64,000 nt of DNA from Flavobacteriaceae bacterium PS02337. GTDB lineage: Bacteria; Bacteroidota; Bacteroidia; Flavobacteriales; Flavobacteriaceae. The first letter of the stretch is position 1; every line of letters begins with the position of its first letter. Both the position numbers and the translations under genes were made by a program. The notes beneath the pieces are model-generated. The model was not told where the DNA came from, searched no databases, and saw only the letters and a program-made list of their open reading frames with translations. The stretch covers positions 124,001-188,000 of the forward strand of contig JASCOE010000010.1 of the NCBI GenBank assembly GCA_029959285.1, in the 5' to 3' direction. Shown piece by piece: positions 6,410-33,207 of this stretch.

Positions 6410-7447
6410 TCAATCCTGTTCTAAGTTTGCTTTTATAAAATCGGTTACTAAATAACCAATTAATTTTCCAATTAAATTATTGTTTGGAGCATTGTCTAAA
6501 TCAGGCGCACCTTCACAAATGTGAATATAAGCCGCATTTTTATGTTCAGCAAAAAACGAAACAAACTGTCTTAATTCTTCTACAGAAAAACCGCTTATCG
6601 TCATGGCGCTGCTGGCAATATTTGGAATTGCGTCTAAATCAATTTCAATTCCGAAAGCGTCATTTTTTATAAAATCCAAAGCAGTAATCATTTCACGATT
6701 AAAATCTTTTTCTTTTCTAATATTAACGCTGTCGTATGTATTATATCGAACTCGATCTTCCAGTTTTTTGATAATGTCTAAAACGCTTTTAGAAGTATAA
6801 TTTTCATGAAGTCCGAAAATGAAGTATTTTTTTAAGAAACCTTCTTCATAAGCATAAGAAAATCCATTTCCGCTGTGACGGCCTTCTAGAATTCTGAAAT
6901 CAGAATGAGCATCAAAATTAATAGCGTTTATTGGTTTGCCTTTCGCTAAAGCGGCACCTTTAATATTTCCGTAAGCATTGTTATGACCTCCGCCAATAAT
7001 TATTGGAATTTTTCCGGCTTTAATAATAGTAAATATAATATGAGATACTTCTTTGTCTATTTTTTCAACCAGTTGACTTAATTTCGAACGGTCGTCAATA
7101 TCGTTAAAATCTAAGTTCTCAACTTCACGCATTTCATCAGCAACATTAATATGTCCTAAAATGATAATGTTGCTTCCTTTAGAAAAGCGATTGTGCTGAA
7201 TATTTGCAATACTTTTTATGGCGCATTGCCATGCAGAAGCGGCTCCAGGTCTTCCGTAGTTGGCACGCACGCCAATATCTTCAGGAATTCCTAAAAGCAC
7301 ATATTTAGCTTCACTTTGTTTTAGAAAATCAACTTTGTCAGCGCTAGGCGGAATGACAATCATTTTTTCTCCGAACTTTATTTCACCACTTCGATGATTT
7401 GTGACTTTTGCTAAATCATTTATAGTGAAAGGGATTAATTTCTCCAT
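6410..7447 (-). CDS. hutG: formimidoylglutamase (arginase family)
   Basis: This manganese enzyme probably hydrolyses N-formimidoyl-glutamate to glutamate and formamide, the last step of histidine degradation. The 345 residues carry the arginase/ureohydrolase metal motifs IIGGGHNNAYG, NFDAHSDFR and EIDLDAIPN. Assignment to HutG rather than arginase or agmatinase rests on the Bacteroidota-type sequence and on hutI lying about 1.1 kb away on the same strand. A coiled-coil gene on the opposite strand separates the two, so they are not one transcript. hutH and hutU are not in the window. Confidence 0.82.
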   Translation of the reverse strand: MEKLIPFTINDLAKVTNHRSGEIKFGEKMIVIPPSADKVDFLKQSEAKYVLLGIPEDIGVRANYGRPGAASAWQCAIKSIANIQHNRFSKGSNIIILGHINVADEMREVENLDFNDIDDRSKLSQLVEKIDKEVSHIIFTIIKAGKIPIIIGGGHNNAYGNIKGAALAKGKPINAINFDAHSDFRILEGRHSGNGFSYAYEEGFLKKYFIFGLHENYTSKSVLDIIKKLEDRVRYNTYDSVNIRKEKDFNREMITALDFIKNDAFGIEIDLDAIPNIASSAMTISGFSVEELRQFVSFFAEHKNAAYIHICEGAPDLDNAPNNNLIGKLIGYLVTDFIKANLEQD

Positions 7448-15270: not shown

Positions 15271-16740
15271 TTAGTGTCCGCCGCCACCGCCTTCAACGTG
15301 GTTGATACCTTGTTTTTTCAATATTTTTGGACAGTAGAATCCGTAGAATCCTAAGTATGCAAAACCAAGTAATGGTACAATATATGAGAAGTGTGTGTAA
15401 GTAATTCCTAAAATTCCGTTTGGATTTGTTGCATCTAAATCACAGATACTTCCTTGAATTAATGGAATAACTCCACCTCCAAGAATCATCATAATTAAGA
15501 AAGAAGATGCTTTTCCTGTGTTTTTTCCTAAACCTGCAATCGCTAAATCGAAGATAGAAGGCCACATAATAGATAAGAATAAACCTCCTGAGATAAAGAA
15601 GAATTTAGCAATTTCTGGATTTGGCCAAACTAAACCTAAAACCATCATTAATAATCCTGAAGCTCCGAAAAGCATTAAAGTTTTTCCAGCATTTTTACCT
15701 CCAACAAAACTTACTGCAATAAACAATAAGATCCAAAGTGGGTAAATGTAGAATGCAGAAACGTCGTGAGCAGCAAAGATATTAGCGCCGATAATTACTC
15801 CGAAGGCAACAGCTGGCACGATGAATTTTAAAGCTGTATTTACTAGGTTTGAAGTATTAAATACATTTACACCACCATTCCAACGACCAATCATTAAACT
15901 TCCCCAATAAAGGGCAATAAATGGAGCGATTGCATCTTCTAGTACATTTCCAAACTCGCTAGTGTGTAATAAAGCTGGTAAATTACTGATGATTGTTACT
16001 TCTGTTCCTACGTAAATGAAAATCCCTAACATACCAAGGTATAATTGTGGGTAATCCATAATGTTGAATTTGCTGTGTTTGTCTTTAATAACAGCTTCTT
16101 CCTCTTTTTCAGGATCTTCAATTTTTGAGAAATTCATGAAAATCGCAACAATGATAAAAGCAAGACCAAGAATGATAAATGGTAATTTAATGTCTTCTAA
16201 AGAAAGAGCTGTTTTTTTATTGTCACCCATTCCAAATAAAGCGATACCTAATAAGATAGCTCCAATTGTTGTTCCAAAAGAGTTGATACCTCCCGCAAGT
16301 GTTAAACGGTGCGCCCCAGTGTTTGGACTTCCCATTTTAATTGCTAATGGATTTGCTACAATTTGCTGAATAGAGAAACCTAAACCAACAGTAAACAAAG
16401 CGGTTAAAAAGAATGGAAAACTTTCCATTGTTGCAGCTGGAATGAATAAAAATGATCCAACAGCAGAAAGAAGTAAACCAGCTGAAAGTGTTCTTTTGTA
16501 GCCGAACTTTTGGAGTACGTCAAGCTTTAAAGAAACTAAAAAGAAGATTATCGATCCTACAAAATACGCAGCATAAAATGCCCACGCTACTAATTGTGAT
16601 TGTACTTGCGATAAAGTAAAAACTTTTTTGAATACTGGAATCAGGATGTCGTTGGCAGAACCAACAAAACCCCAAAAGAAAAAGACGATTATCAAAGAGA
16701 TAAATTGCCCCCATTTGGTTTGCACATTTTCTGAACTCAT
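15271..16740 (-). CDS. sugar MFS transporter, probably N-acetylglucosamine permease
   Basis: The 489 residues form an inner-membrane permease with about 12 hydrophobic segments, of the FucP/NagP-like (FHS) branch of the MFS. Recognisable pieces are FFFWGFVGSANDILIPVFKK at the N-terminus, NPLAIKMGSPNTGAHRLTLAGG and YVGTEVTIISNLPALL. Position beside a chitin locus suggests it imports GlcNAc or chitobiose released in the periplasm. The tail ends in a run of Gly and a His (EGGGGGH). A GTCGTTGGT operator candidate shared with susC lies about 105 bp upstream, supporting co-regulation with the locus. Confidence 0.88.
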   Translation of the reverse strand: MSSENVQTKWGQFISLIIVFFFWGFVGSANDILIPVFKKVFTLSQVQSQLVAWAFYAAYFVGSIIFFLVSLKLDVLQKFGYKRTLSAGLLLSAVGSFLFIPAATMESFPFFLTALFTVGLGFSIQQIVANPLAIKMGSPNTGAHRLTLAGGINSFGTTIGAILLGIALFGMGDNKKTALSLEDIKLPFIILGLAFIIVAIFMNFSKIEDPEKEEEAVIKDKHSKFNIMDYPQLYLGMLGIFIYVGTEVTIISNLPALLHTSEFGNVLEDAIAPFIALYWGSLMIGRWNGGVNVFNTSNLVNTALKFIVPAVAFGVIIGANIFAAHDVSAFYIYPLWILLFIAVSFVGGKNAGKTLMLFGASGLLMMVLGLVWPNPEIAKFFFISGGLFLSIMWPSIFDLAIAGLGKNTGKASSFLIMMILGGGVIPLIQGSICDLDATNPNGILGITYTHFSYIVPLLGFAYLGFYGFYCPKILKKQGINHVEGGGGGH

Positions 16741-16820
16741 AATAATAAGGTTAATTTTTTATTTATTGTTTTTTGAAGACCGTAAATATATTTGTTAGGA
16801 TTATCAAAAAAAAATAAAAA

Positions 16821-16846
16821 GGTATAAATAATGTTAAATTTATACC
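16821..16846. promoter_or_regulatory. inverted repeat upstream of the permease gene
   Basis: GGTATAAAT (16821-16829) and ATTTATACC (16838-16846) are perfect 9 bp arms 8 bp apart. The right arm overlaps the GTCGTTGGT site by three bases. It looks like an operator for a dimeric regulator or an extension of the LytTR site. Confidence 0.5.
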
Positions 16847-16852
16847 AACGAC
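16844..16852 (-). promoter_or_regulatory. GTCGTTGGT operator candidate of the permease gene
   Basis: On the minus strand GTCGTTGGTATAAATTTAA matches the first susC site GTCGTTGGTTTAAATTTTA at 17 of 19 positions. The site is about 105 bp upstream of the permease start codon and just beyond the 3' end of the regulator gene. Confidence 0.6.
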
Positions 16853-16913
16853 CATATTATTTCAACAAAGTGTTAATTTTAACCTACTTAGAAAATGTAA
16901 TTCGTAATTATAT

Positions 16914-17615
16914 TTATTCTAATATTTTATTTTTGACCTCTTTGCTGTAGTTTCGGCCAATTGGAATGTTGTAAGATTGTATTTGAACGCGGTTTCCTTC
17001 TATAGATTTTACCTTATTTAGAGCAATTACATAGGATTTATGTATTCTAAGGAATTTATCTGCAGGTAATTCTTCTGATAAAGATGTAAGAGATTTATGT
17101 GTAATATAAGTTTTGTCTGGCGTAACAACTTTGATATATTCTTTCATTCCTTCAACAAACAGAATTTCTTCAATATTAATTTTCATCATTTTTTTGTCTA
17201 CTTTGATGAAAATGTGTGAATCGCCTTTTGCAGTTTCAACTTTAATATTGTTTTTAAGGTTGTATTCGGTTGTGATTTTGTTGATGCATTTTATAAAACG
17301 CGGAAGCGGAATCGGTTTTACCAAATAATCTAAAACATCAAGATCGTAACTTTCGGCTGCAAATTCTCTAAAAGCGGTGGTAATAATGACTTTAGTTTTA
17401 TTTTCAATCAAACTAATCAATTCAAAACCAGTCATCATGGGCATGTTAATATCTAAAAAGACGGCGTCAACAGGTGTGCTGTTGATAAAATCCAGCGCCT
17501 CTAAAGAATTGTTGAATGTTCCAATAACTTCAAAATCTGTAAAATTGGTAAAATAATTTTGCAGTACTTTGATTGCTAATGGCTCATCATCAATTAACAC
17601 GCATTTAATCTTCAT
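16914..17615 (-). CDS. LytTR-family response regulator
   Basis: The 233 residues are a receiver domain (about 1-120; acidic pair in LIDDEP, phospho-Asp in VFLDINMP, Lys in LVKPIP) joined to a LytTR DNA-binding domain (about 135-230; FVEGMKEYIKV, FLRIHKSYVIALNKV, IPIGRNY). It is the partner of the sensor kinase encoded just upstream, with which it overlaps by 11 bp, so the two are co-translated. LytTR regulators bind direct repeats about two helical turns apart. The GTCGTTGGT pair with 21 bp period before susC fits that exactly, so it is the likely activator of the chitin locus. Confidence 0.92.
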   Translation of the reverse strand: MKIKCVLIDDEPLAIKVLQNYFTNFTDFEVIGTFNNSLEALDFINSTPVDAVFLDINMPMMTGFELISLIENKTKVIITTAFREFAAESYDLDVLDYLVKPIPLPRFIKCINKITTEYNLKNNIKVETAKGDSHIFIKVDKKMMKINIEEILFVEGMKEYIKVVTPDKTYITHKSLTSLSEELPADKFLRIHKSYVIALNKVKSIEGNRVQIQSYNIPIGRNYSKEVKNKILE

Positions 17616-18657
17616 TATGAGTAGGTATTTGTAATCGAGTTATGTAGAAATTTAGTTTGGTTTTTTGTTTAAGGCTGAAATTAGTTCGATAAATTAGCTT
17701 TAATCTCTTTTTTGTATTGACTAAACCAATTCCTCTTTTTGAATTATCATTTTGTGAAATTACAAAATTATTTAAGATTTCAAAGTCAAGCATTTTATTG
17801 TCTAAGACTTTGCAGTTAATTTTAATCTTTAAATTTTTATTGTTCACGCCTCCGTGCTTAAAGGCATTTTCTACCAACGAAATAAAAATGAGCGGCGGTA
17901 CAACAACATCTTCAATATTTGATTCTAGATTTATAGTCACTTCTACATTTTCGAAACGAAGTTTTTCGATTTCGATATAATTCTGAATGTAATCAATCTC
18001 TTTTATTAACGGTACAAACTTAGTTCCTTTTACATCATAAAGTACATATTCCATCAAATTAGAAAGTTTGATAATTACGTCTGGAACTTTCTTGGAAGAT
18101 TCTAAAGATAATGCGTATAAATTATTTAAGGTATTGAAAAAGAAATGTGGTTGAATCTGATTTTCCAGATATTTTAATTTAATCTTAAACTGGTTTTCTC
18201 TCAAAGAACGGTTTCTTTCGCGTTCACGTAACCAAGTTAAGGTTAAATATACTGAAGAAGCCATTGCTAAAACATACAATTCTCCGATACAAACCGCTAC
18301 AATATGATTAATTTCAAAAGGATGATATTCTCGATTTGCTTCTGGCCATATATTTTCAGAGATGATATAATAGGTAAGAGCAGTTTTTAGCAAATAAATT
18401 ACAAACAAACTTACAAGAAGTAAAAATGTATACATAATATATTTCTGCTTCAAAACATATTTCGGTACTAAAACAAAAAGATTTAAATATACTAAAGGTA
18501 TAACCAGTGAAAACTCGATTAAGTTTGATTTGAATGCATAAGGATAATCATTAAAATAAGCGCCCCATCTTAAAAAGTTTAAAGTAAAGTATACTCCCCA
18601 AAACCAAAGATGATTTTGCAGTTTAATGTCAAATTTAACTTTCTTAATTTCTTTCAA
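17605..18657 (-). CDS. LytS-type sensor histidine kinase
   Basis: The 350 residues comprise an N-terminal membrane domain with about four helices (first 140 residues), a short coiled coil (RERERNRSLRENQFK), the His-kinase domain with LENQIQPHFFFNTLNNLYAL (phospho-acceptor His in QPHFF) and an ATPase domain with VPPLIFISLVENAFKHGG and GIGLVNTKKRL. There is no large extracytoplasmic sensor domain, so the signal is probably sensed in or near the membrane. The gene is divergent from susC and overlaps the LytTR regulator gene by 11 bp, making a two-gene operon. Confidence 0.92.
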   Translation of the reverse strand: MKEIKKVKFDIKLQNHLWFWGVYFTLNFLRWGAYFNDYPYAFKSNLIEFSLVIPLVYLNLFVLVPKYVLKQKYIMYTFLLLVSLFVIYLLKTALTYYIISENIWPEANREYHPFEINHIVAVCIGELYVLAMASSVYLTLTWLRERERNRSLRENQFKIKLKYLENQIQPHFFFNTLNNLYALSLESSKKVPDVIIKLSNLMEYVLYDVKGTKFVPLIKEIDYIQNYIEIEKLRFENVEVTINLESNIEDVVVPPLIFISLVENAFKHGGVNNKNLKIKINCKVLDNKMLDFEILNNFVISQNDNSKRGIGLVNTKKRLKLIYRTNFSLKQKTKLNFYITRLQIPTHNED

Positions 18658-18834
18658 TTGGTTTTGTGAGGTTTAGATATTTTAGGTTTTCTTAACATTA
18701 GCTAATATTGTGCAACTTTAAACAATTAAAGGCAAAGTGCCAATTTTTTTGAATAAAATTTCGCTAAAAATGCATATTCATGATTAAATTTTGAAATAGA
18801 ACGTTTTCGTAAAACGTATTATTGAATGATTTAT

Positions 18835-18864
18835 GTCGTTGGTTTAAATTTTATTGTCGTTGGT
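18835..18864 (+). promoter_or_regulatory. two GTCGTTGGT direct repeats upstream of susC
   Basis: GTCGTTGGT occurs at 18835-18843 and 18856-18864, start-to-start 21 bp, each followed by TTTAA. They lie 68-97 bp before the susC ATG. The spacing of two helical turns is typical of LytTR-domain binding sites. Confidence 0.68.
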
Positions 18865-18931
18865 TTAATTTATTTTTTTTAACAATGTCTTAAGAATAAT
18901 TTTACTTCATAACTAACAAAATAAAATAAAC

Positions 18932-21900
18932 ATGAAAAAAATTTTCTTAATCTTTATGATTGTTTTTACGGCGCAAGTTTCGCTTGCTCAAGTAAAAAGT
19001 GTCAAAGGTGTGATTACAGATTCTGACGGTATGCCATTACCAGGAGCTTCTGTTGCTGTACAAGGAGGTCAAAAAGGTACAACTACCGATTTTGACGGAT
19101 TGTATACAATTGAAGCGCAAAAAGGTCAGACTTTAGTTTTTACTTATGTAGGGCTAGAAACTCAGACAATTGTTGTAGGAGATGCTGCTACAATTAATGT
19201 GAAGTTGGTTCAAGGAGCTTCAAATGCTTTAAATGAAGTTGTGGTAACTTCTTTAGGTATTAAAAAGACAAAAAAATCGTTAGCATATGCTGCGCAAGAA
19301 CTTAAAGGAGAAGAATTAACTCGTGTAAAAGATGCCAACCTTATTAATACAGTAGCTGGTAAAATTGCCGGTGTTGCTGTAACAAGAAGTTCATCTGGAG
19401 CAGGTGGAACTACAAAAGTTACTATCCGTGGTAATTCATCATTTGTAAACAATCAACCATTATATGTAATTGACGGTATTCCATTATACAATGGAGGTTC
19501 TGGACAACCAAACGGAACTTTTGGAGATTTAAATGGTGGTAATAAAGATGGTGGAGATGTTGTTTCTTTAATAAATCCTGATGATTACGAAGGAATGACA
19601 GTTCTTAAAGGTGCTGCAGCTTCTGTATTATATGGTTCTCAAGGAGCAAATGGGGTAATTTTATTATCTTCTAAAAAATCAAAAGCAGGAGCAGAATCAT
19701 TTAATGTTAACTCGGTAACAACATTTGAAAGTGCTGCGTATCTTCCAGAATTTCAATCAGATTATACTTCAAATACAGGAGATCCAAGAAGTTGGGGAGC
19801 AAAACAAAAAGTAGAAGGTGATAAACAGATAAAAGACTTTTTCGAAGTAGGAAATACTCAAATTACATCGATGACTTTTTCAAAAGCTACAGAAGGAGCT
19901 TCAACAGCTTTAAGTTATGCAAATACAGATTCTAATGGTATAGTTCCAGGAAATCACTTAAAGAAAAACAACTTTGGAATTCGCCAGACTAGTAAATTCT
20001 TCAACGATAAATTAAGTGTTGCTGTGACAGCAAATTATGTTACTCAAACAATTAATAATAGACCAACAAATGGTTTGTATTTTAATCCAATTGCTGGTGT
20101 TTACAGTCATCCAAGAGCATTTTCTCTTAATGATTTAAAAACGTATGAAGTTTTTGATCCGGTAAAAAACATGATGCAACAAAATTATCCTGGGTTTGCA
20201 GCTGTTAATGAAAGTAATGAAAACCCATATTGGCAGATTAACAAACAAAAATCTGAGGATCATAATAATTTCTTCAACGGAGCAATTGCTTTAGATTATA
20301 AAATTGCTGAGTGGTTTCACTTAACTTCAAGATACAGCTACAACAGAAACGAAAGTAATTTCCAAAAAAGAATGTACGCAACTTCTGCAAGTTCTTTGGT
20401 ACATCCTACAGGAAGATATATCAATGCAAATTTAATCGGTACTCAAAATTATGCTGATTTAATTGCTTTATTCAATACTAAAATTAACGACAACTTTACT
20501 TTTAATGGAACTTTAGGTACTAGTATTAATCACTCTAAAGCTTCAGGATTAACACTTGATTCTGGTATCGGAGGAGGTTTGGTTTATGATAATATCTTTA
20601 CTCTTGGTAACTTTGTAAGTAACAACGGAAACGTTCAAACAGGATCGGCTAGAGAAGTTCAATCTGTATTTGCTGCTGCGACTTTTGGATATAAAGATTA
20701 TTTGTTCTTAGATGTTGCTGCAAGAAATGACTGGTCATCTACATTAGTTAATACTCAAGATCCTGGATATTTCTACCCATCTGTTGGAGCAACTGCAATT
20801 CTTAGCGAAATGACTACTATGCCAGAATTTGTTAACTATGGTAAAGTTCGTGCTACATATGCTAAAGTTGGTAATGATATTGCTGCTACAATTACAAGTC
20901 CTACATCTAGTATCGTTGCAGGAAATAACGTAAATCCTACAGTAGGGCCAAAACCAGGAACAAGTTTAAAAAATGAATTAAAATCGGAATTGGAACTTGG
21001 TACTGAATGGAAATTATTTAATAACAGATTAGGTTTTGAATTATCTTATTATACTTCTGAGACTAAAAATCAATTTCTTCAAGTTCCTGCAGAATCTACA
21101 AATGCAAACGGATATACTTTTTACGCTATCAATGCTGGTAGTATTTCTAACAAAGGATTTGAGGTTGTTTTATATGGTGATGTCGTAAGAGGAGAGAAAT
21201 TCAATTGGGAGACAAGAGTTAACTTTTCAAAAAATAAGAGTAGGGTAAATGATATTCCTTCAGAATCAACAGGAGGAAGAATTGTTCTTACAGATCCAGG
21301 TTCTAACTCTTACAGATATTCATTAATTGAAGGAAGACCATTTGGTGTAATCGAAGGTTTTGATTTTAAAAGAGATGACCAAGGAAGAATCTTAGTTAAT
21401 GATGATAATACATTACAAAGAACAGACTGGAAAGAAATAGGAAATGCAAATCCTGATTTTATGTTAGGCTGGTCAAATACGTTTAAAGTTGGAGCATTTA
21501 CTGCAAATATTTTATTAGACGGACGTTTTGGAGGTGAAGTTCTTAGTTTAACACAAGCAATCAATGATTTTAATGGTGTTTCTAAAGCAACTGGTGATGC
21601 TAGAAATGCTGGAGCTGTACAGCTTAATGGTGTTAAAGCAAGTGACGGAACTCCAGTAACTTCAATGGATCCTTACACATATTATACAAATACTTCAGGA
21701 AGAAATGGAGTTAGTAGCCAATATGTTTATGATGCAACAAATGTTAGTGTTAGAGAAATTTCTGTTGGTTACACATTCAATAAAGCAAAATTACCTTTTG
21801 TTCAAACAGCTACAATCTCTTTAATTGCTAGAAATTTATTCTTTATTTATAAAGATGCTCCATTTGATCCAAATGTGGCGCTAAGTACAGGTGAAGGTTT

Positions 21901-21970
21901 ACAAGGTGTTGATGTATTCGGAATGCCGTCAACAAGAAGTATCGGTCTTAATTTAAACTTAACATTCTAA
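18932..21970 (+). CDS. SusC-family TonB-dependent outer-membrane receptor
   Basis: The 1012-residue protein should import chitin oligosaccharides across the outer membrane with energy from TonB-ExbBD. Order: signal peptide ([20 protein letters not shown]), carboxypeptidase-regulatory-like domain (about 22-98, [16 protein letters not shown]), a plug domain beginning near [12 protein letters not shown] with GRVAG-like [14 protein letters not shown] and YVIDGIPL, then a long beta-barrel ending in the aromatic residue F (LNLNLTF). It is followed by susD after 11 bp. The upstream GTCGTTGGT repeats suggest control by the adjacent LytTR system. Confidence 0.95.
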
Positions 21971-21981
21971 TCTTTACAATC

Positions 21982-23550
21982 ATGACATTAAATATATTAA
22001 AAAGAACAGCAATATGCTTCTCTCTTCTTGCAGCTTTTGGTTGTACAGATAATTTTGAGGACATAAACCAAAATCCCGTAGGAGCAACTACACCGGATTT
22101 GGAACAAAATTTTAACAATATAAAAAGTTTAATTAAGCCTGCCTTTACTAGACTTTATATATCAGATGTAACTTGGCAATATCAATTACAGCAAAGTTTG
22201 CAAGCAGATGGATGGTCAGGATATATGACAAGTCCAAATGAATTTGGAGGAATCAATAACCATAATTACAACTTAAATCCAAACTGGAACGGATATGCTT
22301 GGGATGATGCATATGTAAACATCGTTGCAAACTTGTTTAAAGTAGAGCAGAGAGCAAAAGGAAAATACGATCAGTTTTATGCATGGTCACTTATTATAAA
22401 AGTTGCAACTATGCAACGTATTACAGATATGTACGGACCAGCAGTGTATTCTAAATTTGGTGGTGAAGGTCTTGCAACTTACGATTCTCAGGAGCAGATT
22501 TATACTCAAATGTTCAAAGATTTAGATTTTGCAGTTACAGATTTAACGCAAAGAGTAACAGCTGGAGAAGTTTCTAAATTTACTGAAACAGATCAGTCAA
22601 ATTATGCTGGAAGTTATGCTCAATGGGTTAAATATGCAAACTCACTACGTTTAAGATTAGCGATTCGTATTGCAAAAGTAAATCCTACGTTAGCAAAAAC
22701 AGAAGCTGAAAAAGCGGTAGGTCAGTCAATTGGTGTATTCAAAATCAATGCAGATCTTATAAAAATTAAATCACCATTAGATTTAAATGTAATCGATGTA
22801 ATGAGCCACGTTTGGGTTGGTTTAAATATGGGAGCAGATATGGAATCTATTATGGGTGGATATCAAGATCCTAGAATAGCAAAATATTGGGAGCCATCTA
22901 CACAAGTTGCAGGCGAATATAGAGGTGTGAGAACAGGTATTGTATATCCAACTCCATCAACATACGCTAATTTTTCTAGAACTGGAGACAGAACAAGAAC
23001 TGGTGAAGTTACTTGGATGTCAACTGCAGAGGTTTATTTCTTAAGAGCTGAAGGAGCTTTAAGAGGATGGAACATGAGCGGTACAGCAAAAGATTTATAC
23101 GAAGCAGGAATCAGAGCATCGTTTGAACAAAACGGTGTTGAAGGTGCAGCAACTTATATTGCAGATGATGTTAAAGTTGCAAAAGACTATGTTGACCCTA
23201 TTAGTGCAGTAAATAATGCACCAGCAGTTTCTAAAGTTACAGTTGCTTGGGGAGCTACTAATGAAATTAACTTAGAAAAAATCATCACGCAAAAATGGAT
23301 TGCTACATTTCCTGATGGGCAAGAAGCTTGGTCTGAGTACAGAAGAACAGGTTACCCTAAATTGTTCAGAATCACAAACAATAAAAGTGGTGGTATCATC
23401 AGCACTGCTTTAGGGGTAAGAAGACTGCCTTTTGCACAATCTGAGGCAACTAACAATCCTAAAGGAGTTGAGTCTGGTGTTGCAGCCCTTGGCGGTGCTG
23501 ATAACGGAGCGACAAGACTTTGGTGGGATGTTGATAAAGCAAACTTCTAA
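21982..23550 (+). CDS. SusD-family substrate-binding lipoprotein
   Basis: The 522-residue lipoprotein (lipobox AFGC, Cys 21) should cap the SusC channel at the cell surface and bind chitin oligomers. The N-terminal NFEDINQNPVGAT and the length are typical of the SusD-like RagB family (the SusD_2 branch), with TPR-like helices and many exposed aromatic residues. It is 11 bp behind susC and shares its transcript. A strong hairpin without a T run separates it from nagB. Confidence 0.93.
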   Translation: MTLNILKRTAICFSLLAAFGCTDNFEDINQNPVGATTPDLEQNFNNIKSLIKPAFTRLYISDVTWQYQLQQSLQADGWSGYMTSPNEFGGINNHNYNLNPNWNGYAWDDAYVNIVANLFKVEQRAKGKYDQFYAWSLIIKVATMQRITDMYGPAVYSKFGGEGLATYDSQEQIYTQMFKDLDFAVTDLTQRVTAGEVSKFTETDQSNYAGSYAQWVKYANSLRLRLAIRIAKVNPTLAKTEAEKAVGQSIGVFKINADLIKIKSPLDLNVIDVMSHVWVGLNMGADMESIMGGYQDPRIAKYWEPSTQVAGEYRGVRTGIVYPTPSTYANFSRTGDRTRTGEVTWMSTAEVYFLRAEGALRGWNMSGTAKDLYEAGIRASFEQNGVEGAATYIADDVKVAKDYVDPISAVNNAPAVSKVTVAWGATNEINLEKIITQKWIATFPDGQEAWSEYRRTGYPKLFRITNNKSGGIISTALGVRRLPFAQSEATNNPKGVESGVAALGGADNGATRLWWDVDKANF

Positions 23551-23657: not shown

Positions 23658-25592
23658 ATGAAAAGTGCTTTAGAAATAAAACCTGACATTAGTTACAAAA
23701 GCGCTGGAAAATTTGAAGAAACTCGATTTGAAAAAATTCATAACGAAATCTTCAAAAGTTCTTTAGAAGCTTCTGTAATTGTAGCTGAGGAAATTGCGCA
23801 GCTAATCAGATCAAAACAAGAGAAAAACAAATCTTGTGTTTTAGGTTTAGCAACAGGTTCTTCTCCAGTAAAAGTGTATGAGGAATTGGTGAGAATGCAC
23901 AAAGAAGAAGGACTGAGTTTTAGCAATGTAATCACTTTTAATTTGGATGAATATTATCCGATGACAAAAGAGAACAATCAGAGCTATCACTATTTCATGC
24001 ATGAACATCTTTTTAATCACATTGATATCAAACCCGAAAATATTAATATTCCTGACGGTACAGTCGCAATTGAAGAAATCAATCAATACTGTATCGATTA
24101 TGAAATGAATATTAAAAATGCTGGAGGTCTTGATTTTCAATTACTAGGAATTGGTCGTACGGGACATGTTGGTTTCAATGAACCTGGCTCGCACATTAAT
24201 TCTGGAACAAGAATTATTACGTTAGATCATATTACGAGAGTAGATGCATCATCTGCTTTTAATGGTATTGATAATGTGCCGAAACGTGCTATTACAATGG
24301 GAGTTTCGACTATTATGAGATCAAAGCGTATAGTTTTGATGGCTTGGGGACAAAACAAAGCAGAGATTATTAAAAGAACCATTCAAGGTGATATCAGTTC
24401 TGAAGTTCCAGCTACTTTTTTGCAAAATCATCCAAACGCAACTTTCGTTTTAGATCAGTCAGCGGCTACCGAATTAACTCGTTTTAAAACGCCTTGGTTA
24501 GTGGGGGAATGTCTTTGGACTCCTGAATTGAAAAGTAAAGCGATTGTTTGGCTATGTCAAAAGACAAAACAATCTATTTTAAAATTAACAGACCGTGATT
24601 ACAATAATAATGGAATGTCTGACCTTTTAGCGCAAGAAGGTTCTGCTTATGATATGAACATTAATATGTTTAATATTCTACAGCATACTATTACCGGATG
24701 GCCTGGAGGAAAACCAAACACAGATGATTCGCATCGACCTGAAAGAGCAAATCCGGCAAAAAAGAGAGTAATTCTTTTTAGTCCGCATCCAGACGATGAT
24801 GTGATTTCTATGGGAGGAACTTTCTCAAAATTAATCAAACAAGGTCACGATGTTCACGTCGTGTATCAAACATCTGGAAATATAGCCGTTACTGACGATG
24901 AAGCCTTAAAATTTGCTGAAGTCGCAAGTGATTTTATTGGAAAAGATTCTGGTATTAATTTTAAAGAAGTAATAGAATTTCTAAATAATAAATCTGAAAA
25001 TCAAATTGATTCTTTGGAAGTTAGAAAACTCAAAGGACTTATTAGAAGAAGAGAATCTTACGCCGCAACGAGATATATTGGTTTAAAAGATACCAATACG
25101 CACTTTTTAGATCTTCCATTTTATGAAACTGGACAAGTCAAAAAGAATCCGTTAGGACCAGAAGATATTGCTATTGTAAAAGATATTATTGCTACAATAA
25201 AACCGCATCAAGTATTTGCAGCTGGCGATCTTGCAGATCCGCACGGAACGCATGAAGTTTGTTTGAATGCCATATTCGCGGCTTTAAAAGAACTTAAGCC
25301 CGAACCGTATATGAATGATTGCTGGTTGTGGCTTTACAGAGGCGCTTGGCACGAATGGGATATTCACGAAATTGATATGGCAGTTCCATTAAGTCCGTCA
25401 GAAGTTTTATTAAAACGCCATGCTATTTTGTATCATCAATCTCAAAAAGACCGAGTAATGTTTCAAGGAAATGATTCTAGAGAATTTTGGGTTAGAGCTG
25501 AAGATCGAAATAAAAATACAGCCATTTTATATGATGAATTAGGTTTGGCAGAATATGAAGCAATTGAAGCCTTTAAACGTTTTGATTATTAA
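23658..25592 (+). CDS. nagB: glucosamine-6-phosphate deaminase fused to a PIG-L deacetylase-like domain
   Basis: The N-terminal part (about 30-300) is a NagB/sugar isomerase domain that should convert glucosamine-6-phosphate to fructose-6-phosphate and ammonia: ATGSSPVKVYEEL, NLDEYYPM and GIGRTGHVGFNEPGS. The E. coli loop has Asp two residues before the ring-opening His (DGH); here it is Thr (TGH). The C-terminal part (about 370-640) is an LmbE/PIG-L zinc hydrolase domain with SPHPDDDVISMGG and DPHGTHEVC, the zinc-ligand motifs of GlcNAc-derivative deacetylases. No nagA lies nearby, so the second domain may supply the deacetylation step. At 644 residues it matches the long Bacteroidota type. 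Confidence 0.88.
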   Translation: MKSALEIKPDISYKSAGKFEETRFEKIHNEIFKSSLEASVIVAEEIAQLIRSKQEKNKSCVLGLATGSSPVKVYEELVRMHKEEGLSFSNVITFNLDEYYPMTKENNQSYHYFMHEHLFNHIDIKPENINIPDGTVAIEEINQYCIDYEMNIKNAGGLDFQLLGIGRTGHVGFNEPGSHINSGTRIITLDHITRVDASSAFNGIDNVPKRAITMGVSTIMRSKRIVLMAWGQNKAEIIKRTIQGDISSEVPATFLQNHPNATFVLDQSAATELTRFKTPWLVGECLWTPELKSKAIVWLCQKTKQSILKLTDRDYNNNGMSDLLAQEGSAYDMNINMFNILQHTITGWPGGKPNTDDSHRPERANPAKKRVILFSPHPDDDVISMGGTFSKLIKQGHDVHVVYQTSGNIAVTDDEALKFAEVASDFIGKDSGINFKEVIEFLNNKSENQIDSLEVRKLKGLIRRRESYAATRYIGLKDTNTHFLDLPFYETGQVKKNPLGPEDIAIVKDIIATIKPHQVFAAGDLADPHGTHEVCLNAIFAALKELKPEPYMNDCWLWLYRGAWHEWDIHEIDMAVPLSPSEVLLKRHAILYHQSQKDRVMFQGNDSREFWVRAEDRNKNTAILYDELGLAEYEAIEAFKRFDY

Positions 25593-25745: not shown

Positions 25746-27812
25746 ATGAAATATTTATTTGTACTATTATTTGCAGGGATAACTGCGGGTGCTCAAGTCC
25801 AGAAAGAGCAGCTTAACCTTATGCCTTGGCCTCAGAGTGTTGTTGTTAATGAAGGTAATTTTGCTTTAACCAAAAATTTTAAAGTCAATATTACAGGAAA
25901 TCCCGATCAAAGAATTTTTGGCGGAGTAACTCGCTTTTTGCGCCGTTTAGATGGTAGAGCAGGTATATTTTTTGAACAAGGTTTTATTGCCAAATTAAAT
26001 GAAGTTCCAAACGCAGAATTACAAATCAATTGTACTAAAAGCGGCAAAATTGGTTTATACGAAGACGAAAGTTATCATTTAGATATTACTTCAAACAAAA
26101 TTACTTTAAATGCATCAAGCGATTTAGGTGCATTACACGGTTTGGAGACTTTGTTGCAGTTGCTTCAAAACAATTCAAACTCCTTTTATTTTCCTGTTTC
26201 AAAAATATCAGATTTTCCAAGATTTACGTGGAGAGGTTTAATGATTGATGCTTCAAGACATTTTCAGCCAGTTGATGTAATAAAAAGAAATATTGATGCT
26301 TTGGCAGCAATGAAAATGAATGTTTTTCACTGGCATTTGGTTGACGATCAAGGCTGGAGAATTGAAATGAAAAAACATCCAAAGTTTATTCAATTAGCTT
26401 CGGACGGAATGTATTACACACAAGAAGAAATTAAAAATATCGTAAAATATGCCGATGAGCGCGGTATTTTAATCGTTCCAGAAATAGATGTTCCAGGTCA
26501 CGGATCTGCCATTTTAACGGCTTACCCAGAAATTGGCAGTAAAGTAATTAAGCTGACAGGAGGAACATCCGAAAAAAATATTCAAGGTACGGCAATCAGT
26601 ACCTATGGAGTTGAAAGAAATGCTGGTATTTTTTCACCAACATTAGATCCTTCAAATCCTAAAACATATCAAATTTTAAGTGAAGTTTTTGATGAAGTTT
26701 GTCCGTTATTCCCTGGAGCTTATTTTCATATTGGTGGAGATGAAAATGAAGGAAAAGATTGGGATGCAAACCCTAAAATTCAAGAATTCAAAAAGAAACA
26801 TAATTTAAAAACGAACCACGAATTACAAACCTATTTCACGATGCAATTGGCGCCGATGTTAAAGAAACACGGAAAACAATTGATGGGTTGGGAAGAAATT
26901 TTAACCAAAGATCTTTCTAAAGAAGCAATTGTGCATTCTTGGAGAGGTCCAAACGAAGGAATGGCAGCCGGACAATCTTTAGTTGATGCCGTTAAAAAAG
27001 GATACAAAACAGTTTTATCAAACGGATATTACATCGATTTAATGTATCCAGTTGCAAGTCATTATTTAAACGATCCAATGCCAAAAGGAGCCAATTTAAC
27101 TGCTGAAGAAAAAGCAAGAATTTTGGGTGGAGAAGCCACAATGTGGACAGAATTAGTTTCGCCAACAACAATAGATTCAAGACTTTGGCCAAGAACAGCT
27201 GCAATTGCAGAAAGACTTTGGTCTGCAGAAGATGTTGTCGATGTTGAAAATATGAGAAAACGTTTAGAAGTTGTTTCTTTTAGATTAGAAGAATTAGGAA
27301 TTACTCATCTTCGTAATAAAGATGTAATCTTGAGAAATATTGCAAATAATCAAGATATCAAACCTTTAGAAGAATTTTTAAAAGTTAGCGAACCGCTTAA
27401 AGGTTACACGCGTAACAAGGGCGGAACAGAATATCAAATGTATTCTCCATTAACACTTTTTGCAGATGCTTGTGGTCCAGATGCGAAAGACGCTTTAGCT
27501 TTTGATGCTGTGGTGGCTCAATATTTATCAAATAAATCTGCAGATAATAAAGCAAAACTTGCTGGCTTTTTCAATAAATGGATTGCTGTACATAAAGGAT
27601 TAACTGAAATAAGCATTAATGCGCCATTGGTGCAACCTATATTACCATTGTCTAAAAAACTAAATGACGCTTCTCAGGAATTGTTATTGGTTTTGGATAA
27701 TAAATCAACTTTAACACCTGCAGATCTGAAAAAATTGATTGAACAATGCAATACTAAAGATCATGCAGATGTAGAACTGTCTGTTTATGAGAGTTTAAAG
27801 AAATTAATTTAG
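25746..27812 (+). CDS. beta-N-acetylhexosaminidase, GH20
   Basis: The 688-residue enzyme releases terminal GlcNAc from chitin oligosaccharides. It has a signal peptide (MKYLFVLLFAGITAGAQ), the small GH20b domain (about 30-150) and the GH20 barrel starting near DFPRFTWRGLMIDASRHF, with the catalytic Asp-Glu pair D332-E333 in FHIGGDENEGKDW. HWHLVDDQGWRIEMK and GWEEIL are further active-site signatures. No lipobox or T9SS tail is visible, so it probably works in the periplasm on oligomers imported by SusCD. A C-terminal helical extension follows the barrel. Confidence 0.94.
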   Translation: MKYLFVLLFAGITAGAQVQKEQLNLMPWPQSVVVNEGNFALTKNFKVNITGNPDQRIFGGVTRFLRRLDGRAGIFFEQGFIAKLNEVPNAELQINCTKSGKIGLYEDESYHLDITSNKITLNASSDLGALHGLETLLQLLQNNSNSFYFPVSKISDFPRFTWRGLMIDASRHFQPVDVIKRNIDALAAMKMNVFHWHLVDDQGWRIEMKKHPKFIQLASDGMYYTQEEIKNIVKYADERGILIVPEIDVPGHGSAILTAYPEIGSKVIKLTGGTSEKNIQGTAISTYGVERNAGIFSPTLDPSNPKTYQILSEVFDEVCPLFPGAYFHIGGDENEGKDWDANPKIQEFKKKHNLKTNHELQTYFTMQLAPMLKKHGKQLMGWEEILTKDLSKEAIVHSWRGPNEGMAAGQSLVDAVKKGYKTVLSNGYYIDLMYPVASHYLNDPMPKGANLTAEEKARILGGEATMWTELVSPTTIDSRLWPRTAAIAERLWSAEDVVDVENMRKRLEVVSFRLEELGITHLRNKDVILRNIANNQDIKPLEEFLKVSEPLKGYTRNKGGTEYQMYSPLTLFADACGPDAKDALAFDAVVAQYLSNKSADNKAKLAGFFNKWIAVHKGLTEISINAPLVQPILPLSKKLNDASQELLLVLDNKSTLTPADLKKLIEQCNTKDHADVELSVYESLKKLI

Positions 27813-28308: not shown

Positions 28309-31300
28309 ATGAAACATTATTACAGATTGCTCTTTTTGTTACTGTTTCCCTTACTTGCTATGGCGCAACCAGCCCACGGAAAAAAAGTAGTAGGGTATTA
28401 TGCACAATGGTCTATTTATGCCCGGGATTTTAATATTCCGAAAATTGATGGAAGTAAATTGACGCATTTAAATTATTCTTTTTATGGTACAACGTATGAT
28501 CCTGCTCATCCAGAGAATACAAAATTAAAATGTTTGGACACTTATGCTGATTTTGAGCATATGGAAGGAGGAATTCCATGGGATGCTCCTGTAAAAGGAA
28601 ACTTTTATGACTTGAAAAAGTTAAAAGAAAAATATCCTCATTTAAAAGTTTTAATTTCTGTAGGAGGCTGGACAAAAGGACAAGATCTTTCTCCAATTGC
28701 TGCAAGTCCTGTGGCAAGAGCGGCTCTAGCAACAGATATGGCAAATTTTATCACAACATATCCATTTATTGATGGTTTCGATATCGATTGGGAATATCCT
28801 CTTTCGGGTGGAACTGATGGTACAGAAGTGATAAATGGAGCTCCAATTCCTCCGCAAAAATACAGCCCAGATGACAACAAAAATTTAGTTTATTTATTGA
28901 AAGCAATGCGTCAGGCAATGCCGAATAAATTAATCACAATTGCAGCTGGAAACAATGTTAGAAAAGTAGCACAGCAGTATTTAGGACCATCAAACAGATC
29001 ACAATACGGAATGACAGAAGATATTTCGACTTATTGTGATTACATCACTTATTTCGGATATGATTTTGGTGGAAATTGGTACGATAAAACATGCTACAAT
29101 GCACCTTTATATTCAAGTGGAAATGCAAATGATCCGCTTTACGGAGCGGCACAATCAGAATCATTAGATGAATTAACAAATCAATATTTGAATGTGGTTG
29201 GTTTTCCTGCAAATAAATTAATCATGGGATTACCTTTTTACGGAAAGAAATTCGATCACGTGGCTAATAACGGAACCAATCCAAATTTACCAGGATTATT
29301 CGTTTCAGCTGCAAGAGATATAGTTCCAGGATGTACAAATCCGCAAAACCCAATCGGAACTTGGGATGGTTCTGGCGCTTGCGAACGTTCAGGAAGTATC
29401 GAAATTTGCGATTTAGTCGGAAATCCAGTTACAAACTCACATGCGTATTTAGATCCAAATACGATGTTAGTAACGCCAACTGCCGCTTCAGCAGGATGGG
29501 TGCGTTATTTTGACAATACAACAAAAGTTCCTTATTTATATAATGCTACTAGAAAAGAGTTTATTTCTTATGAAGATAAACAATCGATGGATTTAAAAGT
29601 ACAGTACATTAAATCAAGAAATTTAGCAGGAGGAATGGTTTGGGAATTATCTCAAGATACAAGAGGCTCTATTCCTAATTCATTATTGACTCAAGTTGAT
29701 ACCTCTTTTGGAAGTGCTGTTCCTGGGACCGTAAGTATTTCTGGTTCTGCAAAAAACGGATCAGCTTTAGTTACAGATGTTACAGTTGAATTACGTAATG
29801 CATCTAATGCCGTTATTCAGACAGTAGTTTCTCAAACAGGAAATTTTGCATTCAATAATTTAACTTCTGGACAAAATTATACCGTTACAGCATTAAAAGC
29901 GACTTATACTTTTACTCCAGTAACTTTAAATAATGTTACCGTAAATCAAACTGGAGTTATAATCAACGGAACTCAGCCAACTTACACCGTAAGCGGAACA
30001 GTTCTTAACGGATCGACTGGCGTTTCGGGCGTAACAGTTTCGGCAGTTTCAGGAAGCTCAACATTAACAGCAGTTTCAAACGCAAGCGGAGTTTACAGCG
30101 TTGCAGGTTTAACAGCTGGATTAAATTATACCGTTACAGCTGCAAAAACTGGATTTTCATACACACCAGCTTCTACAGTTTATAATGCAATCGATGCAAA
30201 CAAAACGTTGAATTTTGTTCAAGGAGCAGCAGTTGTAAATTACACCGTAAGCGGAACAGTTCTTATCGGAAGTACTGGAGTTTCTGGCGTAACCGTTACA
30301 GCATCATCTACAGCAGGAAATGTTACAGCAACAACCAATTCAAGTGGAGCATATACTTTGACTTTGGCTTCTGGCGGAAATTATACCGTAACTGCTGCCT
30401 TAACAGGACAAACTTTTACTCCTGCTTCGACAGTTTATTCAAATTTAAATGCGAACAAAACATTAAACTTTTCACAAGATGTTATTGTAACTCCTTCAAG
30501 TAAAATTAGTGGTACAGTTAAAAACGGAACAACTCCGGTTGCTGGTGCAAAAGTAGAAATCGTTTTACCTTGGACAGACAGTACACACAACTGGAAAAGC
30601 GTTTTGGCAACAACAGATGCACAAGGAAAATATAGTTTTGATAATTCTGTTACTGATGGTTATACAACCATTACAAGTTTAAAATTAAATACTTGGTCAA
30701 ACGGAGAGGTAAATTATTACCCAAATAATTTGGCAAACTTCGCAGTTCCTACAAACCCAACAATTTACAATTTCAATACAAGTTCTACAGCAAAAACAGC
30801 ACTAGCTGCCGCAAATTTAATCAGCGGAACAGTTAAAAACGGAACAGTTGCAGTAGCTGGAGCAAAAGTAGAAATCGTTTTACCTTGGACAGATAGTACA
30901 CATAACTGGAAAAGTGTTTTAGCAACAACAGATGCATCAGGAAATTATACTTTTGATAATTCAGTTGTAGCTGGTTATACGCAAATTTTAAGTTTAAAAT
31001 TAAATTCATGGGAAAATGGTGAAGCAACTTATTACCCAAATAACTTAGCCAACTTTGCAGTTCCAACAATGCCAACGGTTTATAATTTTAATAGACAAGC
31101 GGTAGTTGCGACTAAACCAGTGGTTAACATTACAGCGCCAACAGCTTCGTCGATAGCTATAAATTTAGGATCATCAATTAATTTTGTTGCAAGTGTTGGG
31201 TTAAGTGCTGCTGATGCGACTACAATTTCATCTGTAGTATTTAGTTTAGACGGACAAACTTTGAGTGCGACCAATTCTTCAGCAACTTATACATCAACTT

Positions 31301-33057
31301 GGACACCAGCAGCAAATCAGTTTTCGGCTTCTCATACGTTAACTGTTACAGCTACTGCATCAAACGGAACAACAGAATCAAAAACATATAGTTTTACATT
31401 AACTTGTTCTGGTGCAAATTGCCCAAATTCATTACCAGTAATTACATGGAATTCACCATCTAATACTACTGTAAACCAAAGTACTTTTCAAGTTGTACCA
31501 ATTTCAGTTACAGCTGTAGATAGTAACGGATCAGTTTCAGGTGTTACGATTACAATAAACGGAGGTACGTTTAACATGACAGCGGGTACAAATAATACCT
31601 ATTCGTATAATTTTACACCATATGCTTACAAAGATTATCCAATTGTAATCAAAGCAACCGATAATCAATCTGGTGTAACTACATTAAACAATACAATTAA
31701 AATTGCTCCAGTAAGTACCAATAGATTTATTCCGCTTCCTTCTAAAATTATTTTAGGATATGCACATTCTTGGGAAAATACTTCAGCTCCATTTTTATAT
31801 TTCTCTCAAATGGTGGGAAGTAAGTTTAACGTAGTCGATTATTCTTTCGTAGAAACAGTGAATCGTGATGGTTATACACCAGTATTAACTACAAACGATA
31901 CTAGATATTTGACTAATGGAGTTTTCAATAAGCAATTGTTGAAAAATGATATAAAATCTTTAAGAGATAGTGGAGTTCCTGTTATTGTCTCTATCGGAGG
32001 TCAAAATGGGCATGTTGTTTTAGATAATGTAACTCAAAAAAATATTTTTGTTAATGGTCTAAAAGCAATTATTGACGAGTATCAATTTGATGGAGTTGAT
32101 ATTGATTTTGAAGGCGGATCGATGAATTTTAGCGCAGGAAATTTAAGAGACATTTCGTATGCAGGTATTTCTGCTTATCCAAGATTAAAAAACGTAGTAG
32201 ATGCTTTCAAAGAATTGAAAGCGTATTATGGTCCTGGATTTTTATTGACAGCAGCTCCAGAAACACAATACGTACAAGGAGGATATTCTACTTATACTGA
32301 TACATTTGGTTCTTTCCTTCCAATCATTCAAAACTTGCGTAACGAACTAGATTTGTTGGCGGTACAATTGTATAATACAGGAGGAGAAAACGGATTAGAT
32401 GGTCAATATTATGGCACGGCTAAGAAATCAAACATGGTAACAGCTCTAACTGATATGGTAATAAAAGGATATAACATTGCTACAACAGGAATGCATTTCG
32501 ATGGTTTGCCAGCCTCAAAAGTTCTTATTGCATTACCAGCTTGCCCGAGTGCAGCAGGTAGCGGTTATTTAACGCCGACAGAAGGAATTAATGCTATGCA
32601 TTATTTAAGAACCGGAACCACTTTTTCAGGAAGAACATACACTATGCAGCCAGGCGGACCATATCCTTCTTTAAGAGGTTTAATGACTTGGTCTGTAAAC
32701 TGGGATGCCTCTTCTTGCGGTAATTCATCTGAATTATCTAAAGCTTATGCCGCTTATTTTGCATCGCAGTCGGCATCAAAAACATTGGCACTAGATGATA
32801 TTTCTTTAAAAAGCAATACAACTGTAGCCTATTTTAAAAACAATACTTTATCTGTATCTAATGAAACAGAAGATATTGCTCAGGTTGATGTATTTAATAC
32901 GATAGGACAAACTATTACAAGTTCTAGAAATATTCAGAACAACAAAGAAGTCTTGCTTCATAGCCACAGTTTTGCTAGCAAGCAGTTATTTATTGTAATA
33001 GTAACAGACAAATCTGGAAATAAAAAGTCACTGAAAGTAATGAATTTTTTGAATTAG
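28309..33057 (+). CDS. chiA: secreted chitinase with two GH18 domains and T9SS tail
   Basis: The 1582 residues closely follow the architecture of F. johnsoniae ChiA, the T9SS-exported key chitinase. Order: signal peptide (to LLAMAQ, residue 20); GH18 domain 1 (about 25-460, catalytic DGFDIDWE, Glu 162); three carboxypeptidase-regulatory/Ig-like repeats (about 485-730, YTVSGTVLNGSTGVSGVTV type); two nearly identical 105-residue domains (733-837 and 838-935, GAKVEIVLPWTDSTHNWK); two Ig-like domains (about 950-1135); GH18 domain 2 (about 1145-1490, DGVDIDFE, Glu 1268); and a C-terminal sorting-domain-like region (about 1510-1582, VDVFNTIGQTI, ending MNFLN). Both catalytic motifs are intact. It should be free or cell-surface and start chitin breakdown. 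Confidence 0.94.
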   Translation: MKHYYRLLFLLLFPLLAMAQPAHGKKVVGYYAQWSIYARDFNIPKIDGSKLTHLNYSFYGTTYDPAHPENTKLKCLDTYADFEHMEGGIPWDAPVKGNFYDLKKLKEKYPHLKVLISVGGWTKGQDLSPIAASPVARAALATDMANFITTYPFIDGFDIDWEYPLSGGTDGTEVINGAPIPPQKYSPDDNKNLVYLLKAMRQAMPNKLITIAAGNNVRKVAQQYLGPSNRSQYGMTEDISTYCDYITYFGYDFGGNWYDKTCYNAPLYSSGNANDPLYGAAQSESLDELTNQYLNVVGFPANKLIMGLPFYGKKFDHVANNGTNPNLPGLFVSAARDIVPGCTNPQNPIGTWDGSGACERSGSIEICDLVGNPVTNSHAYLDPNTMLVTPTAASAGWVRYFDNTTKVPYLYNATRKEFISYEDKQSMDLKVQYIKSRNLAGGMVWELSQDTRGSIPNSLLTQVDTSFGSAVPGTVSISGSAKNGSALVTDVTVELRNASNAVIQTVVSQTGNFAFNNLTSGQNYTVTALKATYTFTPVTLNNVTVNQTGVIINGTQPTYTVSGTVLNGSTGVSGVTVSAVSGSSTLTAVSNASGVYSVAGLTAGLNYTVTAAKTGFSYTPASTVYNAIDANKTLNFVQGAAVVNYTVSGTVLIGSTGVSGVTVTASSTAGNVTATTNSSGAYTLTLASGGNYTVTAALTGQTFTPASTVYSNLNANKTLNFSQDVIVTPSSKISGTVKNGTTPVAGAKVEIVLPWTDSTHNWKSVLATTDAQGKYSFDNSVTDGYTTITSLKLNTWSNGEVNYYPNNLANFAVPTNPTIYNFNTSSTAKTALAAANLISGTVKNGTVAVAGAKVEIVLPWTDSTHNWKSVLATTDASGNYTFDNSVVAGYTQILSLKLNSWENGEATYYPNNLANFAVPTMPTVYNFNRQAVVATKPVVNITAPTASSIAINLGSSINFVASVGLSAADATTISSVVFSLDGQTLSATNSSATYTSTWTPAANQFSASHTLTVTATASNGTTESKTYSFTLTCSGANCPNSLPVITWNSPSNTTVNQSTFQVVPISVTAVDSNGSVSGVTITINGGTFNMTAGTNNTYSYNFTPYAYKDYPIVIKATDNQSGVTTLNNTIKIAPVSTNRFIPLPSKIILGYAHSWENTSAPFLYFSQMVGSKFNVVDYSFVETVNRDGYTPVLTTNDTRYLTNGVFNKQLLKNDIKSLRDSGVPVIVSIGGQNGHVVLDNVTQKNIFVNGLKAIIDEYQFDGVDIDFEGGSMNFSAGNLRDISYAGISAYPRLKNVVDAFKELKAYYGPGFLLTAAPETQYVQGGYSTYTDTFGSFLPIIQNLRNELDLLAVQLYNTGGENGLDGQYYGTAKKSNMVTALTDMVIKGYNIATTGMHFDGLPASKVLIALPACPSAAGSGYLTPTEGINAMHYLRTGTTFSGRTYTMQPGGPYPSLRGLMTWSVNWDASSCGNSSELSKAYAAYFASQSASKTLALDDISLKSNTTVAYFKNNTLSVSNETEDIAQVDVFNTIGQTITSSRNIQNNKEVLLHSHSFASKQLFIVIVTDKSGNKKSLKVMNFLN
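30505..31100 (+). repeat. tandem repeat in chiA, 315 bp period
   Basis: The unit starting ISGTVKNGT is encoded at 30505-30819 and again from 30820. The two copies differ at few residues (for example SWENGEATYYPNNLANFAVP against TWSNGEVNYYPNNLANFAVP). They are probably carbohydrate-binding or spacer domains made by recent duplication. Confidence 0.85.
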
Positions 33058-33207
33058 AATAAAATGATTGAAAATCTAGAAATGAAAAATTGGGAAAGGT
33101 TAAAATTGAGCTTGGTTATTTATTTTTTAATCTGATTTTTATTTCGAATAAATGCTGTGAATTAAGGAGATTTGTTATTTGGTTTTCTCCTTGAAGAGCA
33201 CATTATG

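Follow-up and report, generated by a model that had tools for sequence, protein, structure and literature searches.

The 9-mer GTCGTTGGT upstream of susC in a flavobacterial chitin locus is very probably the core of a predicted operator for the response regulator CusR, of the direct-repeat type used by LytTR proteins. Comparison across orthologous loci places the 9-mer at the heart of a longer sequence, GTYGTTNGTWTAA, which is repeated 21 bp apart in front of susC and is followed at a fixed distance by a predicted promoter element.

The window, by which we mean the whole 64,000-nucleotide stretch of DNA that was analyzed, contains a Flavobacterium chitin utilization locus of the ChiUL type, and its two-component gene pair is CusS/CusR. 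Pfam assignments and gene order place a LytS-type kinase gene and a receiver-LytTR regulator gene divergent from susC in the chitin locus, the arrangement by which CusS/CusR was recognized. The cusR orthologue (16914..17615, minus strand) encodes a response regulator with a LytTR DNA-binding domain (PF00072 and PF04397), the proposed binder, and the cusS orthologue (17605..18657, minus strand) encodes a LytS-type histidine kinase (His_kinase; PF06580). The sequence-only reading had described the sites as bracketing a LytS/LytTR pair, which these domains confirm. On the far side of cusR lies a gene for an MFS sugar permease (15271..16740, minus strand), taken as the orthologue of Fjoh_4565 by gene order relative to PMC5127042. 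The gene for the cusC-type SusC TonB-linked outer-membrane transporter (18932..21970, plus strand; TIGR04056) heads a putative operon with susD (21982-23550), a nagB-like gene (23658-25592), a GH20 gene (25746-27812), and the chiA GH18 chitinase gene (28309-33057), all on the plus strand and all proposed read-through targets of the susC promoter. The strain of Flavobacterium johnsoniae used for comparison was CI04 (locus L098), whose CusR is 94% identical. Deletion of cusS-cusR in F. johnsoniae abolished both growth on chitin and ChiA, as reported in PMC5127042. We also considered an LRS system, in which a LytTR regulator is paired with an inhibitory membrane protein, and ruled it out: CusR carries a receiver domain and is paired with a protein that has a His_kinase domain, which makes the two a two-component pair. 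Elsewhere in the same genome (L182, C33:303000-321000), a CusR paralogue of 48% identity lies with a kinase beside another nagB-like gene, which appears as two open frames; no CusR-type site pattern was found at this locus.

As had been noted from the letters alone, GTCGTTGGT occurs at 18835-18843 and 18856-18864 on the plus strand and at 16844-16852 on the minus strand. There is no further copy in the window; the shuffle mean is 0.14 copies, and none of 100 shuffles reached three. The two copies upstream of susC do form a direct repeat with a 21-bp period, and the flanks quoted as matching between the susC and permease sites are identical at 17 of 19 bases. Extended to 13 bp, the distal half-site of the predicted susC operator is GTCGTTGGTTTAA (18835..18847, plus strand), and the proximal half-site, 21 bp away, is again GTCGTTGGTTTAA (18856..18868, plus strand); the consensus across orthologues is GTYGTTNGTWTAA. 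The perfect 30-bp double site has a single match in the genome even with up to three mismatches allowed, compared to none for the control. A predicted −7 box, TAATTTTA (18897..18904, plus strand), begins 62 bp past the start of the distal half-site. In the compared loci the box at this distance reads TAnnTTTR, and the Flavobacterium −7 consensus is given as TAnnTTTG at positions −12 to −5 (PMC9723704). With the box so placed, the distal 9-mer spans roughly −74 to −66, and the proximal one, spanning roughly −53 to −45, sits some 10 bp upstream of the −33 region. A LytTR operator of the direct-repeat type would comprise two near-identical repeats of about 9 bp, 10 to 13 bp apart (PMC11347149), just upstream of the −35/−33 element. 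The susC site has 9-bp repeats with 12 bp between them and, positioned by sequence from the predicted −7 box, lies just upstream of that element.

The arrangement was compared across 81 loci, namely, the window and 80 loci from Flavobacterium, the best of 154 retrieved through CusR. A strict pair pattern, which carries no requirement for a −7 box, matched 118 times in 80 of the 81 loci, and TAnnTTTR was present at +62 in all 118 matches; the reversed pattern yielded no pairs in 1,382,511 bases. A second strict pair was found in 38 of these loci, and this far pair precedes a second susC-like start in the rows with a called protein. Presence at orthologous loci, on which the sequence-only reading had staked its proposal, is nearly universal: with a looser pair pattern, 79 of the 80 fetched loci have the 21-bp pair and the box at +62 no more than 2.5 kb from cusR, and the exception, L070, is cut off by a contig end before susC and was omitted from the susC alignment. 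Three of 80 sequences lacked a pair in a fixed-window scan, as they have a longer leader and their pairs sit further out. Nineteen loose pairs had no −7 box, and the first 6 of these 19 look like one coding repeat. The bare 9-mer, by comparison, is unremarkable genome-wide, with 20 copies versus 47 for the reversed pattern, and a motif that is not over-represented might be taken for an accident of chance or of sequence composition. Set against the positional conservation of the strict pairs, that explanation of the repeats is improbable in the extreme.

Conservation per base is concentrated in the half-sites relative to the spacer. Information content is 1.61 to 1.88 bits per base in the 13-bp half-sites, versus 0.83 to 1.08 bits in the 8-bp spacer between them. 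The promoter from +34 to +59 is conserved as well, at 1.43 bits per base in the near set and 1.84 in the far set, and the flanking parts of the far set are conserved at 1.84 to 1.87 bits; the contrast therefore holds for half-sites versus spacer and not versus all surroundings. The near set comprises the strict pair nearest cusR, which for L047 and L076 is the site of the second susC. A second conserved box, ACGTTTTCG (18801..18809, plus strand), belongs to a partly palindromic element of susC, not permease, promoters, 34 bp upstream of the distal half-site. Of the susC promoters, 68 of the 80 in the near set and all 38 in the far set have it at that distance; one more has it at 35 bp, and it was not found in 11. 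A longer form has 12 genome-wide matches versus 19 for the reversed control, and five of the other loci bearing it, when inspected, shared no clear theme.

Within the genome, the specificity of the site lies in its extended form. A composite pattern consisting of the half-site, 49 bases, and TAnnTTTR has just two perfect matches, at the susC and permease promoters, which likewise argues against a chance origin of the repeats. One further place matches with one mismatch, and at up to two mismatches the count (21 versus 25 for the reversed control) is at chance level. A degenerate pair pattern behaves similarly, with one perfect match in the genome, the next best at two mismatches, and nine matches versus nine in the control, again chance level, at up to three mismatches. 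The concern that the motif might be common at unrelated genes thus does not apply to the extended form, although the bare 9-mer, with its 20 copies, is nothing special. Facing cusS, the best matches in 18650-18931 have five mismatches to the composite and seven to the pair pattern, so no autoregulatory site was found there.

The genome encodes 18 LytTR proteins, and 18 stretches around such genes (one of the 15 newly taken being cut by a contig end) were scanned for repeats spaced at 20 to 22 bp and followed, 41 bp past the second repeat, by a −7 box. Besides susC, the only plausible matches were a pair on contig C44 and a weak match before a regulator gene on contig C2; two other loci had chance-like matches and the remainder none. 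Generality of the phasing rule for LytTR proteins is not shown by these 18 stretches. The C44 words, GCCATTCGTATAA and GCCGTTGGTATAA, lie 20 bp apart upstream of a second LytS/LytTR pair (L171, about 7175-7245), resemble CusR half-sites, and also form an inverted repeat. Comparable matches were found in G313, G340, G380, G399, and G411, the one in G340 likewise beside a LytS/LytTR pair. On C2 (L187, 3491, minus strand), ACGATTACC and ACGTTTACT lie 21 bp apart with TACATTTA at +62, before the LytTR regulator's own gene; the words are possibly an autoregulatory site, or a chance occurrence.

Across 150 Flavobacterium genomes, the site tracks CusR. A composite match without mismatch is present in 48 genomes; counted by hand, there are 105 matches versus 11 of the reversed pattern, an excess that chance would be hard put to produce. 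CusR orthologues, defined by at least 75% identity, are present in 45 of the 150 (44 full length and one contig-end fragment). In 40 of these 45 genomes a composite match lies near cusR on the same contig, whereas any match at all is found in only 8 of the 105 genomes without CusR (Fisher p about 7e-23, uncorrected for kinship); because the genomes are related, this p value and the k-of-n counts given here overstate independence. Most of the misses retain parts of the site. In G444 and G358 both half-sites are kept at zero to two mismatches each, with the box at +62; in G343 and G414 the proximal half-site is perfect and the box is in phase, with four mismatches in the distal half-site; and G344 is a fragment without susC. 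In G343 and G414 (L178 and L179), which no longer have the distal half-site close to the promoter, extra half-sites lie roughly 100 to 150 bp upstream of susC.

The comparison also shows that the site keeps company with cusR where the neighboring genes differ. In G308, nagB adjoins cusS and bears the pair, and in G315, nagB beside cusR bears an intact pair; in neither genome is susC beside cusR. G127 carries the pair before nagB in addition to susC, G363 has a near-identical third match, and G400 has a weaker site before a subtilase gene with a secretion tail. In G315 (L175, 9330-9985), cusS is a remnant with stops in its reading frames next to an intact cusR, which may answer to another kinase. 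Beyond the genus, G214 has the pair between cusS and susC, in the same arrangement as in the window. G698, which belongs to another family, has a CusR of 66% identity, with LytTR and kinase domains confirmed, and three half-site-like words (3, 1, and 3 mismatches) at 21-bp steps, with TACATTTA 62 bp from the middle word. The composite matches there with one mismatch; a scan for the pair plus the box had not picked it up. Of 299 genomes surveyed in the family, all three that have CusR at an E value of 1e-85 or better contain the pair. Three other genomes contribute four pair matches with one mismatch, about the control level of three. Exact identity of the site drops in distant relatives.

Co-occurrence by itself cannot name the binder, and a regulator other than CusR, for instance of the AraC or LacI type, could bind the repeats and merely track the chitin locus. 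AraC-type proteins, too, use direct repeats about 21 bp apart, and the ACGTTTTCG box upstream of the susC half-site means that another protein may act at susC. That box, however, is missing from 79 of 79 permease promoters, the core and its spacing fit the LytTR repeats described in the literature, and the site follows cusR in both gene content and place, including the genomes in which nagB takes the place of susC and the genome from another family. We therefore regard a different binder of the repeats as quite unlikely and retain CusR as the predicted one.

The copy of the motif at the permease belongs to a distal half-site, GTCGTTGGTATAA (16840..16852, minus strand), identified by sequence comparison, with a predicted −7 box, TATATTTA (16783..16790, minus strand), 62 bp past its start. 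The proximal position, TTATTTATA (16823..16831, minus strand), is degenerate by column counts and probably weak or nonspecific: in most rows it reads TTATTTRTR and not the consensus, so that the permease promoter has a single consensus half-site instead of two repeats. A relaxed half-site pattern nevertheless fits 80 of 81 permease upstream regions (the window and the best 80 of 154), L083 being the exception, and TAnnTTTR stands at +62 in all 80 of them. Among the 40 genomes with a match near cusR, 33 have a permease match at zero mismatch, as counted by hand, with the gene of each row judged by the matched sequence and its place and some loci opened.

A rival interpretation accepts the susC pair as the CusR operator and holds the permease copy to be a coincidence or a different operator, such as the palindrome GGTATAAAT-N8-ATTTATACC present in the window. 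It draws on the single consensus half-site, on conservation of the permease upstream region that is not footprint-like, since the region is largely conserved (1.96 bits in the spacer), and on the fate of the site in more distant species: it is eroded in G328, G308, G343, and G315, and no recognizable site was found in G444, which has a different-looking permease. In F. johnsoniae, moreover, deletion of the permease gene blocks growth on glucose as well as on chitin and GlcNAc (PMC5127042), and a permease required for glucose should be under other control too. Against this stand the phasing in orthologous regions described above and four genomes of more distant species (G354, G402, G409, and G301) that keep the half-site and the 62-bp distance although the spacer has diverged. 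The palindrome, GGTATAAAT...ATTTATACC, requires A at half-site position 10, which was seen in just 10 of 80 orthologues, and it was rejected as a conserved operator. On balance, a coincidental or unrelated permease copy appears unlikely, and the architecture of a CusR half-site at the permease is probably real, on a case that is moderate and weaker than that for susC. Because the proximal half-site is degenerate, activation at the permease, with the distal half-site and the 62-bp phasing kept, would probably be weaker and combined with other inputs.

The proposal that the pair activates both import genes is accordingly favored strongly by the comparisons for susC and moderately for the permease, and in relatives the predicted regulon reaches beyond import genes. 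The site lies before nagB, the subtilase gene, and an unlinked operon in some relatives. In G351, G355, G393, G405, and G406, a pair with the −7 box at +62 also occurs far from cusR (L173 8290, minus strand; L174 8195, minus strand; L219 4846, minus strand; L220 6572, plus strand; and L221 5507, plus strand). In all five genomes it is located between a gene that we take to be pnp-like and an operon encoding a small protein, a TonB receptor, and a DUF4249 protein, with Pfam assignments from the G351 copy; CusR or another LytTR protein may act on it. A bolder reading, less likely than not, is that a rigid flavobacterial LytTR grammar (half-site, +21 repeat, and +62 box) outlasts changes of gene. 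CusR would then also drive the DUF4249 operon and would act at the permease through one distal half-site, so that a single signal would produce graded responses.

By analogy with other two-component systems, CusS would sense a chitin breakdown product and phosphorylate CusR. A CusR dimer would then bind the two GTYGTTNGTWTAA half-sites, 21 bp or two helical turns apart, just upstream of the −33 region, and the bound protein would recruit RNA polymerase to the −7 box, whose distance from the distal half-site is exactly 62 bp. We infer that susC, susD, nagB, the GH20 gene, and chiA could be switched on together through read-through. In the window, no good CusR site was found in the gaps before nagB, the GH20 gene, and chiA, where the best plus-strand composites have 6, 4, and 6 mismatches, respectively. 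Plus-strand terminator-like matches before position 33207 occur only inside susC and nagB, and none is intergenic; the scan found 10 sites versus a shuffle mean of 8.9 and is thus a weak test. These two results lead us to prefer read-through.

Genetic evidence shows that F. johnsoniae cannot use chitin without CusS-CusR (PMC5127042), and an operator with exact phasing would make its regulon predictable genus-wide. Such an operator would bring the permease under the switch, points to read-through as the means by which chiA is driven, gives reporters and footprints an exact target, and supplies a trial rule for finding LytTR targets among Bacteroidota promoters. In the main text of the ChiUL paper (Larsbrink 2016, PMC5127042), the terms "promoter," "operator," and "DNA-binding" are absent, and the passages on a "binding site" concern glycans or ligand fitting. 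Among the matches listed in the open-licence literature, no title or opening of an abstract mentions a binding site for CusR or, for a Bacteroidota glycan locus, an operator of the LytTR type.

Compared to solved structures, whole CusR has its best matches within the receiver part (best 60 of 93 matches), and its LytTR domain has weak matches, to 3d6w at an E value of 0.0007 and to AgrA chains at 0.7 to 0.8. LytTR activators are described as using 9-bp repeats separated by about 12 bp and often placed some 10 bp upstream of −35 (PMC6193735), and PMC4064291 and PMC11347149 describe a similar arrangement. The operators of AgrA, AlgR, HdrR/BrsR, and YpdB, as reported, resemble the susC site in that two direct repeats of 9 bp, separated by about 12 bp, stand upstream of the −35/−33 element. 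The likeness extends to the core C-GTT-N-G-T of the AlgR site CCGTTCGTC (PMC4064291), which has CGTTCGT in common with those half-sites whose seventh position is C, as it is in 27 of 77 distal half-sites. The window site differs from these operators in its Bacteroidota-type promoter, whose −7 box, TAnnTTTR, stands at an unvarying distance of 62 bp, in its extended half-site with a TAA tail, and in its predicted control of a susC-type glycan importer. HTCS and ECF-sigma/anti-sigma regulators of Bacteroides PULs also activate susC/D operons locally in response to sugar, whereas the system here employs a separate LytS kinase and LytTR response regulator with another DNA-binding fold. Local, sugar-responsive activation of a susC/D operon is likewise a property of Bacteroides SusR, a comparison made in PMC5127042. 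Among comparable systems, the F. johnsoniae ChiUL also has the two-component pair, the MFS permease, susC/D, nagB, GH20, and chiA (PMC5127042), but strain UW101 has two susC/D pairs and the window has one. The predicted susC site would thus be a LytTR operator set in a Bacteroidota promoter, ordinary in type and unusually rigid in its grammar.
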